From positions 1-21,127 of IMG/VR virus record IMGVR_UViG_3300026473_000050: a DNA stretch of 21,127 bases. One strand, given 5' to 3'. Below, piece after piece: positions 4,287-8,594 of the stretch. Source of the DNA: a virus. Below the pieces are notes generated by a model. It was not told the DNA's origin. It was given only the letters and a program-made list of their open reading frames with translations, and searched no databases. Numbering within the stretch: position 1 is the first letter of the stretch; each line of letters begins with the position of its first letter. The translations under genes and the position numbers were made by a program.

Positions 4287-4820
4287 ATGGAATGGCTTAA
4301 CATCGTAGTGAAAGACCACAAAGAATGGGTTAAACTGGTCAAAAGTTTTGGCGAGGATTTCTTCGCTGAAGACATCGTGCAAGAATCCTACCTACGATTA
4401 CATAAGTATTGCAAACCTGAAAATATTATTCAAGATGGTCAAGTCAATAAAGGTTTTATGTATTTTGTTTTACGCAATCTTTACCTATTACACGTTAAGG
4501 CTGAAAAGAAGAACGAAATGGTAAACCTTGACAACTTACCCTTACTAAAAGACGAACCAACCAACCTAACTAAAGAAGAAGCCTATACACGATTGCTCAG
4601 TAAAATACACGAAGAAGTAGATTCGTGGCATTGGTACGATAAACAACTTTTCACGATATACAAAGACACGGATTTAAGTATTAGAGACATCGCAAAGGAA
4701 ACTACAATCAGTTCCAGTTCAATCTTCAATACCTTAAAGAACTGCAAAAGCAAAGTAAGGAATAAGTTTAAGGAAGATTATGAGGACTACAAAAACGAAG
4801 ATTACGAATTAATTAAATAA
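4287..4820 (+). CDS. sigma-70-like transcription factor (ECF-like), phage-encoded
   Basis: 177 residues. Region-2-like sequence is seen at AEDIVQESYLRLHKY (27-41) and GFMYFVLRNLYLLHV (56-70), the helices that bind the RNA polymerase clamp and melt the -10. A region-4-like helix-turn-helix follows at about 128-155 (LSIRDIAKETTISSSSIFNTL) for -35 recognition. Two-domain size and order match small sigma factors. As the first gene of a new operon that continues into terminase and virion genes, it could direct late transcription, as RinA/ArpU-type regulators do upstream of terminase in other phages. An anti-host role cannot be excluded. ATG at 4287 is the first usable start; an ATG at 4280 runs into a stop after six codons. 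Confidence 0.75.
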   Translation: MEWLNIVVKDHKEWVKLVKSFGEDFFAEDIVQESYLRLHKYCKPENIIQDGQVNKGFMYFVLRNLYLLHVKAEKKNEMVNLDNLPLLKDEPTNLTKEEAYTRLLSKIHEEVDSWHWYDKQLFTIYKDTDLSIRDIAKETTISSSSIFNTLKNCKSKVRNKFKEDYEDYKNEDYELIK

Positions 4821-4827
4821 AATAAAT

Positions 4828-5223
4828 ATGGCACGAAGAAAAAAACAAGCCGAAGGTTTAGGAGACACGGTAGAGCAAGTTTTAGAAGCTACAGGAATCG
4901 CAAAGGTAGCTAAATGGGTATTAGGCGAAGATTGCGGATGCGAAGAACGTAAACAAAAGTTAAATGACCTTTGGAGATACAAACGACCTGAATGCCTAAC
5001 GGAAGACGAATACAAATATTTAGACGGATTCTTTGCACAGGGTAGAAATTCAGTTTCTCCAAGCGAACAACGAGAACTACTTAAAATCTACAATCGAATA
5101 ATGCACGAAAAAATGCAACCTACAAGTTGCGGTTCGTGTTTACGGGAAGTAGTTAATAAATTGAATAAGTTATACGCAATCTATAAAGAAGAACAAGATG
5201 CCGATACCACAACCAACGAGTAA
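4828..5223 (+). CDS. Cys-rich phage protein, possible zinc-binding, function unknown
   Basis: 131 residues. An N-terminal helix (LGDTVEQVLEATGIAKVAK) is followed by GEDCGCEERKQKLN (C36, C38), then a segment with C56, and near the end PTSCGSC (C101, C104). The CxC and CxxC pairs could bind one zinc ion. I recognise the EDCGCEERK pattern from Bacteroidota phages, where it lies near packaging genes, but I know of no assigned function. A preceding A-rich leader (AAATAAAATAAAT) serves as the translation signal. Its end overlaps the HAD gene by 26 bases. Confidence 0.6.
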   Translation: MARRKKQAEGLGDTVEQVLEATGIAKVAKWVLGEDCGCEERKQKLNDLWRYKRPECLTEDEYKYLDGFFAQGRNSVSPSEQRELLKIYNRIMHEKMQPTSCGSCLREVVNKLNKLYAIYKEEQDADTTTNE

Positions 5224-5629
5224 CGAAAGTGAAAAGGAATTTATCCAGCGTTGTATGGATGATTCTAAAATGAAGGACGAATACGATATAGACCAACGCT
5301 ACGCAGTTTGTCAAGATGCGTTTAAAACCAAGTTAGCCGGCGAAAAGATTTCATTCGATTTTGACGGAACTTTAAGTACGAAACGAGGTTACGAAAAGGC
5401 GAAGCAACTAATAAGCGAAGGAGCAGAAGTTTACATCATCTCAGCAAGGCAAAATAAAGACGGAATGTTAGCTAAAGCAAACGAGTTAGATATACCAGTA
5501 GGAAGGGTTTACGCTATGGGTAGCAACGAAGCTAAAATTGAAAAGGTAAAGGAACTTGGAATAGTAACACACTACGATAACAACGTTGATGTCGTACGAG
5601 CATTAAGAGGAATAGGCGCAATAATATGA
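5198..5629 (+). CDS. HAD-family phosphatase with short phage N-terminal domain
   Basis: 143 residues in two parts. Residues 1-42 (MPIPQPTSNESEKEFIQRCM ... QRYAVCQDAF) match a short helical domain I know from head-protein or protease N-termini in other phages. Residues 50-143 are a minimal capless HAD domain: motif I DFDGT (54-58, nucleophile Asp54 and Asp56), motif II IISAR (Ser82), motif III Lys113 or Lys116, motif IV HYDNN with Asp127. The family removes phosphate from nucleotides, nucleic acid ends, sugars or small molecules; the substrate here is unknown. It is joined by ATGA to the ParB-like gene, suggesting joint work. Start at 5198 is supported by the conserved MPIP opening. Confidence 0.7.
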   Translation: MPIPQPTSNESEKEFIQRCMDDSKMKDEYDIDQRYAVCQDAFKTKLAGEKISFDFDGTLSTKRGYEKAKQLISEGAEVYIISARQNKDGMLAKANELDIPVGRVYAMGSNEAKIEKVKELGIVTHYDNNVDVVRALRGIGAII

Positions 5630-6156
5630 AAATAGAAAAAGTAAAGTTATCGGAAATTAAACCGAACCCGAAAAACCCAAGACTAATTAAAGACGAAAAG
5701 TTTAAAAAATTAGTTCAATCAATTAAGGACTTTCCGCAAATGTTGGAACTTCGTCCCATTGTAGTTGATGAGAATAACATTATATTAGGTGGAAATATGC
5801 GTTTTAAGGCACTTAAAGAAGCAGGACATACCGAAGTGTCAATAGTTAGAGCGAACGACCTTACAAGCGAACAAAAAGACGAATTTATTGTAAAAGATAA
5901 CGTAGGATTCGGGGAATGGGATTGGGATAGTTTAGCAAACGAATGGGATGTTGATAAACTTGAGGAATGGGGTTTAGATATTCCTATATTTGATAGTAAT
6001 ATAAATGATATTGAACAAATTGATGAATTTAATGAGTCAGTAAATTTTACAATTAAATGTGAATCTATTGAACAACTAGAGGAATTACAAACTAAATTAA
6101 ATTGCTCTTCTAATAAATTAAAATATGAAGACTTTTTAATTAAAGTTGCATTATGA
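5626..6156 (+). CDS. ParB/Srx-like nucleotide-binding domain protein
   Basis: 176 residues. IKPNPKNPR (11-19) and LRPIVVDENNIILGGNMRFKAL (42-63) are the core of the ParB N-terminal domain, where the GGxxRxxA loop binds nucleotide. Residues 75-120 continue the usual phage version (VKDN.GFGEWDWD, WGLDIP). In phages such domains often sit before a DNA methyltransferase or near DNA-modification genes; no methyltransferase follows here. From about residue 121 (base 5990) composition changes abruptly: Asn goes from mostly AAC to AAT and the sequence becomes AT-rich, like the next gene. The C-terminal 55 residues are therefore likely of different origin, and the gene may be a chimera. ATGA overlaps join it to both neighbours. 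Confidence 0.75.
   Translation: MKIEKVKLSEIKPNPKNPRLIKDEKFKKLVQSIKDFPQMLELRPIVVDENNIILGGNMRFKALKEAGHTEVSIVRANDLTSEQKDEFIVKDNVGFGEWDWDSLANEWDVDKLEEWGLDIPIFDSNINDIEQIDEFNESVNFTIKCESIEQLEELQTKLNCSSNKLKYEDFLIKVAL
5960..5992 (+). promoter_or_regulatory. possible internal promoter within the ParB-like gene
   Basis: TTG (5960-5962), 22 bases, then TATATTTG (5985-5992), the same octamer as at the two intergenic promoters. It could drive the downstream glycosyltransferase-like gene on its own. It sits exactly at the AT-rich boundary, where chance matches rise. Confidence 0.25.
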
Positions 6157-7106
6157 GAATAGCATTATTAGATATTAAGGTAGGCACTAAGATAGGAAGT
6201 AATTTTACTGCCGTAAATATGCGTAATATGATATTGCTACAAAAAGAATTAGGAGCTGACTTTTATTATTCAACAGACCAGTTAATTAATAATAATAAGG
6301 AATATGATATATTTATATTTGGGTTTGCATCTATTAATGGCGAAATAGAAAAACAATTTGAATTTGTAAAAAAATCACCAAATTCAAAAATATTTAGATT
6401 AGTTGGAGAATATGAGCAAAGTGGACATCCTCCGCTTTATTATGTATTGACAAGATTAAATAAAATGCACCACGTAATAAGCAATGTAGATGAAAATTTT
6501 AATAGTTATGGAAAGTATAAATCAGGACAATCATTTCTAAATTTAAACTTACTTGTGGTAAAACAATCAAATCAATTAATAGAAAAAAAATACGATTGTA
6601 TTTATTATGGTAGATGGAGAGAAGATAGAAAGGAGTATTTTAAAAAGTATATCCAAGATGGAATATATTTAAGTACCTCCATAAAGAATATGAAAAAATT
6701 TAAACATAATAATTGCAATCCTAAATATTTAGATACAATTAGTTGGGAAGATAAAAAGGAAACATTAAACTTTTTTAGATACTCATTATACATTGAGGAT
6801 AAATATACACATAAAGTATTTAATAACTTAGCTAATCGTTGGTATGAAGCTGGATTTTGTAATAATGTTGTTTTTTTTGATGTGAATTGCTGGAACACAA
6901 TACGAAAATCGGAAATAGCATCTTTTGAAAACCAAATAAAAGATTACATAGTTACAAGTTATGAAGATTTACAAGATAAAATTAAATATTGTAACCAAGA
7001 TTTTGAACGACATTTATCAATTCAAAAAGGATGGAGAATTGGAGAGATGCATCATAAATATCAGATGATTAATCAATTAAAAAAAATAATTGGATTAACA
7101 GAGTAA
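5990..7106. other. AT-rich island of foreign composition
   Basis: From about 5990 to the stop of the glycosyltransferase-like gene the sequence is much poorer in G+C than its surroundings: a hand count of 6241-6300 gives 15 of 60, against 29 of 60 for 7141-7200. Asn is mostly AAT and Arg mostly AGA. The island starts inside the ParB-like gene and ends just before the packaging genes, which points to import by recombination. Similar AT-rich blocks are the genes at 738-1094 and 1611-2075. Confidence 0.6.
6153..7106 (+). CDS. probable GT-B-type glycosyltransferase
   Basis: 317 residues. The N-terminal half begins MRIALLDI, a first Rossmann strand, followed by NMRNMILLQKELG, an acceptor-side helix; DIFIFGFAS and KIFRLVGEYE are further strands. 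The second half opens with KYDCIYYGRWREDRKEYF, the start of a second Rossmann domain, and contains THKVFNNLANRWYEAGFCNNVVFFD (about 233-257), the place where GT-B enzymes bind the sugar nucleotide, with an expected 'R.yEa...g.vp' layout. This resembles, by eye, the plan of T4 DNA alpha-glucosyltransferase; no direct similarity can be claimed. Target could be phage DNA, virion protein or host surface. Strongly AT-rich with AGA and AAT codons. Coupled to the ParB-like gene by ATGA. Confidence 0.45.
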   Translation: MRIALLDIKVGTKIGSNFTAVNMRNMILLQKELGADFYYSTDQLINNNKEYDIFIFGFASINGEIEKQFEFVKKSPNSKIFRLVGEYEQSGHPPLYYVLTRLNKMHHVISNVDENFNSYGKYKSGQSFLNLNLLVVKQSNQLIEKKYDCIYYGRWREDRKEYFKKYIQDGIYLSTSIKNMKKFKHNNCNPKYLDTISWEDKKETLNFFRYSLYIEDKYTHKVFNNLANRWYEAGFCNNVVFFDVNCWNTIRKSEIASFENQIKDYIVTSYEDLQDKIKYCNQDFERHLSIQKGWRIGEMHHKYQMINQLKKIIGLTE

Positions 7107-7107
7107 A

Positions 7108-7125
7108 ACACCGAAATTACACCGA
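7108..7125. repeat. short direct repeat upstream of the small terminase gene
   Basis: ACACCGA occurs twice (7108-7114 and 7119-7125) with 4 bases between, filling the gap before the ATG at 7127. Packaging recognition sites often lie by this gene, but two heptamers alone are weak support. Confidence 0.3.
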
Positions 7126-7126
7126 T

Positions 7127-7462
7127 ATGAACAAAGAAGATAATTTAAAACCCGCTTGGAGCAAAGGAGAAAGCGGAAACCCTGCGGGAAGACCAAAAGG
7201 AAGTAAGAACCGAAGCACAATCGCGCGCCGTTGGTTAGAAGTTAATCAATCATTAAAAAACCCAATTACCGGCGAGAACGAAACAATGAGCCAAGAAGAC
7301 TTAATGACCTTGGCGCTAATTAAAAAAGCACGTGAAGGCGATGTAAACGCGTACAAAGCGTTAATGGATAGCGGTTATGGTGCGCCCGTTCAGCAAATCG
7401 AACAAACGAATATAGAAATTCCACTTTTTCCTGATGTTCAAGAGGACAACCGCAACGAATAA
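7127..7462 (+). CDS. terS: terminase small subunit (DUF5681-like)
   Basis: 111 residues. The opening WSKGESGNPAGRPKGSKNR (11-29) is the Gly/Pro/Lys-rich DUF5681 hallmark, followed by a helix IARRWLEV. This domain is common in phage proteins directly before large terminases, and is taken as the DNA-binding small subunit that marks phage DNA for packaging. The middle is helical (MSQEDLMTLALIKKAREGD); the end (EIPLFPDVQ) is a tail that may contact the large subunit. It overlaps the large subunit gene by 29 bases in another frame. Composition returns to core-phage type right at this gene. Confidence 0.75.
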   Translation: MNKEDNLKPAWSKGESGNPAGRPKGSKNRSTIARRWLEVNQSLKNPITGENETMSQEDLMTLALIKKAREGDVNAYKALMDSGYGAPVQQIEQTNIEIPLFPDVQEDNRNE

Positions 7463-8594
7463 GGTACTCGGATTAAAGAACCGCGTTAAGATTATTCAGG
7501 GTGGCACGAGTGCTTCCAAGACGTATTCAATTTTGGCGGTGCTAATTAATAAGGCGCTATTAATACACGGAATCGAAATAAGCGTAGTTGCCGAAACTAT
7601 ACCACATTTAAGGCGTGGCGCGTTAAAGGATTTCCTGAAAATAATGAAGTGGACGGGTAGGTATATTGAAGATAGGTTCAACAAATCTTTACTTCGTTAT
7701 GAGTTTGCCAACGGAAGCGTAATAGAGTTTTTTTCCGCAGACGATTCAAGCAAGTTGCGTGGTGCAAGGCGCGACATACTTTACATAAACGAATGTAACA
7801 ACGTAACCTTTGACGCTTACAACGAATTGGCTATAAGAACACGAAAGGAAGTTTATTTGGACTTTAACCCTGCAAATGAATTTTGGGTACATACGGAACT
7901 AAAAGACGAACCCGATTCGGACTTCCTGATTCTTACTTACAAGGACAACGAAGCGTTAGACAAAAGCATAGTAGAGCAAATAGAAAAGAACCGCGACAAA
8001 GCAAATACAAGTTCTTATTGGGCGAATTGGTGGAAGGTTTACGGAGAAGGTCAACTTGGAATGCTCGAAGGAGTAGTTTTCAGTAATTGGAAACAAATCG
8101 ACACGATACCTAAAGAAGCTAAGTTGTTAGGAATAGGACTTGACTTTGGTTATACCAATGACCCGACTGCGATAATAGAAATATACAATTACAACGGACA
8201 ACGAATAGTAAACGAGTTAGCATACCAAACAGGGTTATTAAATAGCGACATCGCAAAACTGCTACCGAAAAACGTGGTGGTGTACGCTGATTCTTCCGAA
8301 CCTAAATCAATAGACGAAATTAAACGCTACGGAATAACGATTAAAGGAGTAACCAAAGGTAAGGATTCGATAAACTACGGAATAGATGTTATTCAGCGCA
8401 ACGAATACTTAGTTACTTCGAATAGCAGTAATTTAATTAAAGAACTACGTTCATATGTTTGGGATACCGACAAACAAGGCAAACGATTAAACAAACCTAT
8501 CAATTTTAATAACCACGCTATTGATGCGTTCAGGTATCACGAAATGGAAACGCTTGGGATAGGTTCAAACTACGGAAACTATGCAATACGATAA
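7434..8594 (+). CDS. terL: terminase large subunit (ATPase and nuclease)
   Basis: 386 residues. The ATPase has GGTSASKT (23-30) as Walker A and ILYINE (115-120) as Walker B with catalytic Glu120; YLDFNPANEFWVH (141-153) is the coupling segment. The RNase-H-like nuclease has Asp237 in GLDFGYTNDPTA, Asp286 in VVYADSSEP and Asp364 in NHAIDAFRY. All motifs are intact, so the protein should be active in translocating and cutting DNA at the portal. The start at 7434 lies 29 bases inside the small subunit gene; no later Met lies before Walker A, so it is the best choice. The stop overlaps the next small gene by 14 bases. Confidence 0.92.
   Translation: MFKRTTATNKVLGLKNRVKIIQGGTSASKTYSILAVLINKALLIHGIEISVVAETIPHLRRGALKDFLKIMKWTGRYIEDRFNKSLLRYEFANGSVIEFFSADDSSKLRGARRDILYINECNNVTFDAYNELAIRTRKEVYLDFNPANEFWVHTELKDEPDSDFLILTYKDNEALDKSIVEQIEKNRDKANTSSYWANWWKVYGEGQLGMLEGVVFSNWKQIDTIPKEAKLLGIGLDFGYTNDPTAIIEIYNYNGQRIVNELAYQTGLLNSDIAKLLPKNVVVYADSSEPKSIDEIKRYGITIKGVTKGKDSINYGIDVIQRNEYLVTSNSSNLIKELRSYVWDTDKQGKRLNKPINFNNHAIDAFRYHEMETLGIGSNYGNYAIR

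Follow-up and report, generated by a model that had tools for sequence, protein, structure and literature searches.

Organization of the Locus

The window, i.e., the whole analysed stretch of viral DNA (21,127 nucleotides; IMG/VR record IMGVR_UViG_3300026473_000050), was found to contain three ORFs on the + strand that are joined by two 4-base ATGA overlaps and have a sigma-like gene on one side and the terminase on the other, as described by a previous reading of this DNA made from the letters alone (the sequence-only reading). They encode a HAD-like protein, a ParB/Srx-like protein and a glycosyltransferase (GT; Table 1). The second assignment was confirmed by a significant ParB_N domain (PF02195; Pfam E 3.5e-7), and the same protein matched phrog_498 (DNA methyltransferase N-terminus) in PHROGs with E 4e-30. 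The ParB and GT genes were both shown to be under purifying selection (dN/dS about 0.06–0.2) and are real genes. The large terminase subunit (TerL) showed 54% identity to Flavobacterium phage terminases, and a Bacteroidota host is therefore likely for the window phage. At 738–1614 of the window, a MUG113/T5orf172-type (GIY-YIG-like) ORF was observed, followed by a lambda NinG homolog.

Table 1. Features at and around the ParB-GT locus (positions in the window).
Feature	Position	Strand	Description	Evidence
Sigma-like ORF	4287–4820		5′ of the three-gene stretch
Upstream flank of slot, 131 aa	4828–5223	+	Relatives in 59 fetched loci, whatever the slot holds
HAD-like gene, 143 aa	5198–5629	+	Phage-motif N-terminus and HAD-like domain; neighbour, outside the module
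ParB/Srx-like protein, 176 aa	5626–6156	+	N-domain 5626–5979, C-terminal tail 5980–6153	PF02195, E 3.5e-7
ParB C-terminal tail	5980–6153	+	GT-specific; proposed docking segment	Tail profile; GC 0.20
T4 BGT-like GT-B glycosyltransferase (predicted), 317 aa	6153–7106	+		AF2 model, Foldseek, hhalign, residues
Exchanged segment (ParB tail and GT)	5980–7126	+	Low GC	DNA homology breakpoints
DUF5681 gene	7127–7462	+	Downstream flank, small-terminase position	PF18932, E 1.8e-15
TerL gene	7434–8594	+	Downstream flank	PF17288/PF04466

Fold and Conserved Residues of the Glycosyltransferase

An AF2 model of the GT based on an alignment of 44 relatives reached pLDDT 93.8 and pTM 0.90, while an alignment of 15 relatives had given a poor model (pLDDT 75), for which the fold search returned only weak GT-B matches. 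The GT-B fold that the sequence-only reading had expected of the 317-residue protein is present in the predicted structure. In a Foldseek search against PDB, ranks 1–4 were all T4 beta-glucosyltransferase (BGT; E 7e-11 to 1e-8, TM 0.68–0.73), and the best match other than BGT was a GT-B protein at E 6e-6. Profile comparison (hhalign) gave E 1.3e-5 to T4 BGT alone and 6.1e-10 to the BGT family, represented by a seven-member alignment; in the controls, E was 0.09 with a TET-associated glycosyltransferase (TAGT) and 0.04 with T4 alpha-glucosyltransferase (AGT), all of these E-values being those of single comparisons. The controls ruled out both AGT and TAGT as the closest relatives of the GT, and AGT, which was also among the PDB matches, was structurally weaker than BGT.

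In the hhalign alignment, R156, D216, R229, and E232 of the GT were aligned with R191, D258, R269, and E272 of BGT, and R159 adjoins BGT R195, being matched if a shift of one residue is allowed. All five GT residues were invariant in 44/44 relatives. In T4 BGT we take R191, R195, D258, R269, and E272 to be UDP/glucose-binding residues and D100 to be the catalytic acid/base. A comparison of the strands SKIFRLVGE and SKIYYLFTD by eye would match GT E86 with D100, at a place outside the profile alignment, which covers mainly the C-terminal half. This residue, located just after the matching strand, was E or D in 44/44 relatives and is a putative catalytic base at the likely position of D100.

Pfam showed only a sub-threshold match of the GT to Glyco_trans_1_2 (PF13524, E 0.19) and no match to a BGT model at E ≤ 1, and no GT match was obtained in PHROGs. 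Phmmer and profile searches of PDB sequences gave nothing useful, so that the link to BGT was missed by sequence search alone. The likeness to T4 BGT comprises the predicted GT-B fold, the best PDB match and the residues of the sugar-nucleotide site, and it may extend to an acidic residue (E86) at the likely position of D100. The window GT differs in showing 19% identity, in lacking a Pfam BGT match and in being paired with ParB, whereas T4 b-gt is paired with the dCMP hydroxymethylase gene 42. The window GT most likely works like BGT; we do not assign it to the BGT family itself, since the acceptor pathway was not found (see below) and the family profiles gave no match.

ParB and GT Form the Conserved Unit

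Relatives of the GT were drawn from viral contigs by using the window protein and alignments. The close set, with identities of about 39% or more and the 5′ side of the gene intact, comprised 47 contigs in addition to the window, and a distant group showed 30–38% identity (n = 25). In the window and in 47/47 of the other close contigs, the GT gene was immediately preceded by ParB, usually with the same 4-base overlap, and the terminase and further genes of these contigs were often unrelated. In the distant group ParB was found directly 5′ of the GT in 18/25 and was missing in 7/25, and the GT may therefore be able to act without ParB. Two ParB-less distant relatives (L164:5950–7457 and L171:2928–4681) adjoin small DNA-methyltransferase-like ORFs. 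Among isolated phages, a homolog was detected only in Cronobacter phages S13 and LPCS28 and Citrobacter phage Ci1, in which a hypothetical protein showed 34% identity over residues 107–280; they differ from the window in being T4-like (182 kb), with the gene near uvsY/uvsW and no ParB upstream. Among bacterial and archaeal genomes, 0/117 pattern-matching stretches encoded a GT relative, and the search thus revealed neither a prophage nor a cellular source.

The seven longer GT-bearing records were searched for a further obligatory partner and none was found, as only the ParB and GT families were common to all of them. Within the GT phages, the HAD-like gene was confined to copies of the same phage and to split pieces in L011, and it recurs beside methyltransferase-type ParBs (L053, L076, and L098). 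The three joined genes pointed out by the sequence-only reading are thus literally joined in the window, and the co-occurrence in other phages by which it would have been checked was found for ParB with GT but not for HAD. The conserved unit is ParB and GT only, with the HAD-like gene as a mere neighbour. A pathway of all three genes, with the phosphatase making or trimming a modified nucleotide, agrees with the contiguous ATGA overlaps of the window, but it was rejected as very improbable because HAD does not track the GT in relatives, being missing from the other GT loci save for the L011 pieces and present in phages of the methyltransferase type.

The HAD assignment rests on the DFDGTL motif I and the sequence layout, Pfam giving no match for this protein. 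Its N-terminus carries the motif MPIPQPTSNESEKEFIQRCMDDSKM. Many relatives that lack the HAD part have this motif upstream of ParB, and the HAD domain therefore has the look of an inserted or fused element.

An Exchange Slot between the ParB N-domain and the Terminase

DNA homology between the window and seven relatives (L045, L046, L047, L048, L052, L057, and L062) was shown to end at 5978–5979, inside ParB, and to resume at 7127–7187. Compared to L045, the window showed 91% DNA identity over 5626–5979 and 83% from 7127, and the window ParB showed 95% identity to the methyltransferase-fused ParB of L045 over residues 1–121. The GC content was 0.20–0.25 in the segment between the breakpoints vs. 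0.35–0.43 at its edges.

In 41 of 78 loci found by means of the ParB N-domain, a DNA methyltransferase was fused to ParB; most of the remaining loci contained a short ParB tail and a separate gene. The occupants of the slot confirmed in examples were Mom (PF25680), C5 DNA methylase (PF00145), TAGT (PF20691), the oxygenase Tet_JBP (PF12851) and a fusion of ABC-ATPase and GNAT, the last of these in several phages (e.g., L050:5495–6571 and L197:3513–4583). The order was ParB-TET-methyltransferase-like in L092:2155–4362 and ParB-TAGT-TET in L124:5004–7086. As relatives hold other DNA-modifying enzymes between the same breakpoints, the slot is an exchange site for such enzymes and the window GT is one of its occupants.

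The cultured Pseudoalteromonas phage SL25 showed the same layout, in a 2-kb stretch that is unannotated in its record. Its ParB had suggested a cultured carrier of the ParB-GT pair, but the slot holds a protein of the ABC-GNAT type, and SL25 was discarded as such a carrier. By eye, a QueD-like and DpdA-like pair was seen after ParB in L060:5536–6698, and an AdoMet-decarboxylase-like ORF after a ParB-methyltransferase in L046:414–1926.

Compared to the phrog_498-type ParB-N/methyltransferases, the window shows the same N-domain in the same slot, with up to 95% identity over residues 1–121, except that the methyltransferase domain is replaced by a short tail and a separate GT gene. The TAGT loci likewise hold a phage DNA glycosyltransferase in the ParB slot; they differ in that profile comparison of a slot TAGT with the window GT revealed no similarity and in that the window module lacks a TET partner.

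The N-domain profile scored alike in GT-linked, other-enzyme-linked and methyltransferase-fused ParBs (medians 193, 197, and 195 bits, respectively). A profile of the tail, built from the GT-linked ParB set itself, gave 71–100 bits in the 25 ParBs linked to a GT, whereas the 63 remaining ParBs scored no higher than 3.5 bits, and distant GT-linked ParBs outside that set matched as well (e.g., L151, 2.5e-15). Furthermore, in L009, L012, and L015 the same tail was attached to an N-domain of a different ParB. The C-terminal ~50 residues of ParB thus accompany the enzyme, and the N-domain stays with the phage; this fits and suggests an enzyme-specific docking segment.

Many phage GTs decorate virion proteins or host surface glycans, and the sequence-only reading had left open virion or host-surface sugar as the target of the GT; its adjacency to ParB would then be incidental. 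Pfam alone, which sees the protein only as glycosyl transferase-like, and the failure to find a hydroxylated base pathway agree with such a role. We nevertheless regard it as unlikely, since BGT is the closest fold, outranking every other solved GT-B fold, the sugar-nucleotide residues are conserved, the slot otherwise holds enzymes that act on DNA, and the GT is strictly paired with ParB across unrelated phage backbones.

Acceptor Base

T4 BGT glucosylates 5-hydroxymethylcytosine (5hmC) made by gp42, and gene 42 adjoins b-gt in T4. The statement of the sequence-only reading that no methyltransferase or base-synthesis gene is visible in the window proved right as far as tested. Thymidylate synthase (PF00303) was not detected in the window or in 18 GT-bearing records, most of them fragments, but including contigs of 47, 38, and 36 kb. 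TET (Tet_JBP) was not detected in the 18 records (up to 47 kb) either, by a search that was positive in the control records L092 and L124, and no gp42 homolog (dCMP hydroxymethylase) was detected in the window or in seven of them. One GT-bearing record contained a C5 methylase. The complete genomes of Cronobacter S13 and Citrobacter Ci1, which encode the distant GT homologs, contained no gp42 homolog at E ≤ 1e-3 and likewise no BGT-like gene, and each carried a thymidylate synthase of ordinary length.

As no gene for a hydroxylated base was found, the chemistry of T4 cannot simply be copied to the window phage; as the records are often partial, a hydroxymethylated acceptor base could still apply. 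Under the latter alternative, a variant of the DNA-glycosylation reading favoured below, the GT would be an ordinary glucosyltransferase of 5hmC (or hydroxymethyluracil), with the base supplied by the host or through genes in a stretch of the phage genome that the sequence does not cover. We hold this as a tentative possibility: the closest fold uses 5hmC, the related TAGT of the ParB slot pairs with TET in L124, and the window and most relatives are incomplete, whereas thymidylate synthase/dCMP hydroxymethylase and TET were not found in the records named above, which include the long contigs, no third gene was common to the sampled GT phages, and the complete genomes of S13 and Ci1 showed no gp42 homolog at the threshold given, though each of them does carry a thymidylate synthase. 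Put forward with equal caution is the possibility that ParB and GT are self-sufficient and that sugar is transferred straight onto a canonical or host-modified base with no phage hydroxymethylase or TET, the tail being an adaptor that would make enzymes interchangeable on a DNA-bound scaffold.

Discussion

Sequence comparison and the structural model together support, with a probability of about 0.8, the interpretation that ParB and GT constitute a swappable cassette of two genes by which the phage glycosylates its own DNA against restriction or other DNA-targeting defence. The DNA-modification system suspected in the sequence-only reading is thereby upheld for ParB and GT by the BGT fold, the conserved sugar-nucleotide residues and the enzymes of the slot, with HAD not being a part of it. 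In the proposed mechanism, the ParB N-domain would be a common scaffold sitting on DNA, and the C-terminal tail, which always goes with the enzyme, would recruit one particular enzyme. By homology, the BGT-like GT-B enzyme would transfer a hexose, for which glucose taken from UDP-glucose of the host is the most likely candidate, and the glycosylated DNA would withstand restriction and other defences that target DNA. The tail and the enzyme would be swapped together when homologous recombination takes place at the ParB N-domain and at DUF5681/terminase.

That ParBc proteins occur beside phage DNA modification enzymes is already known, and their role was stated to be unknown (PMC12783734). The CmoX/CmoY carboxymethylcytosine pathway described there likewise has a ParBc protein beside a phage DNA hypermodification enzyme, with a different chemistry. 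No description of a pair of ParB and a BGT-like GT, of the swap boundaries or of the enzyme-specific tail was found in the open-access papers searched.

To our knowledge, the phage DNA glucosyltransferases described so far act on a base that has been hydroxylated beforehand. If this widespread two-gene module lacks the hydroxylation step, it would imply either a new base chemistry or an unrecognised acceptor. The pattern offered by the exchange slot, i.e., one conserved N-domain, many enzymes and an own tail for each, makes the role of phage ParB-like proteins beside DNA modification enzymes testable, and listing the genes located between the ParB N-domain and the terminase is a way to find unknown DNA-modifying enzymes.
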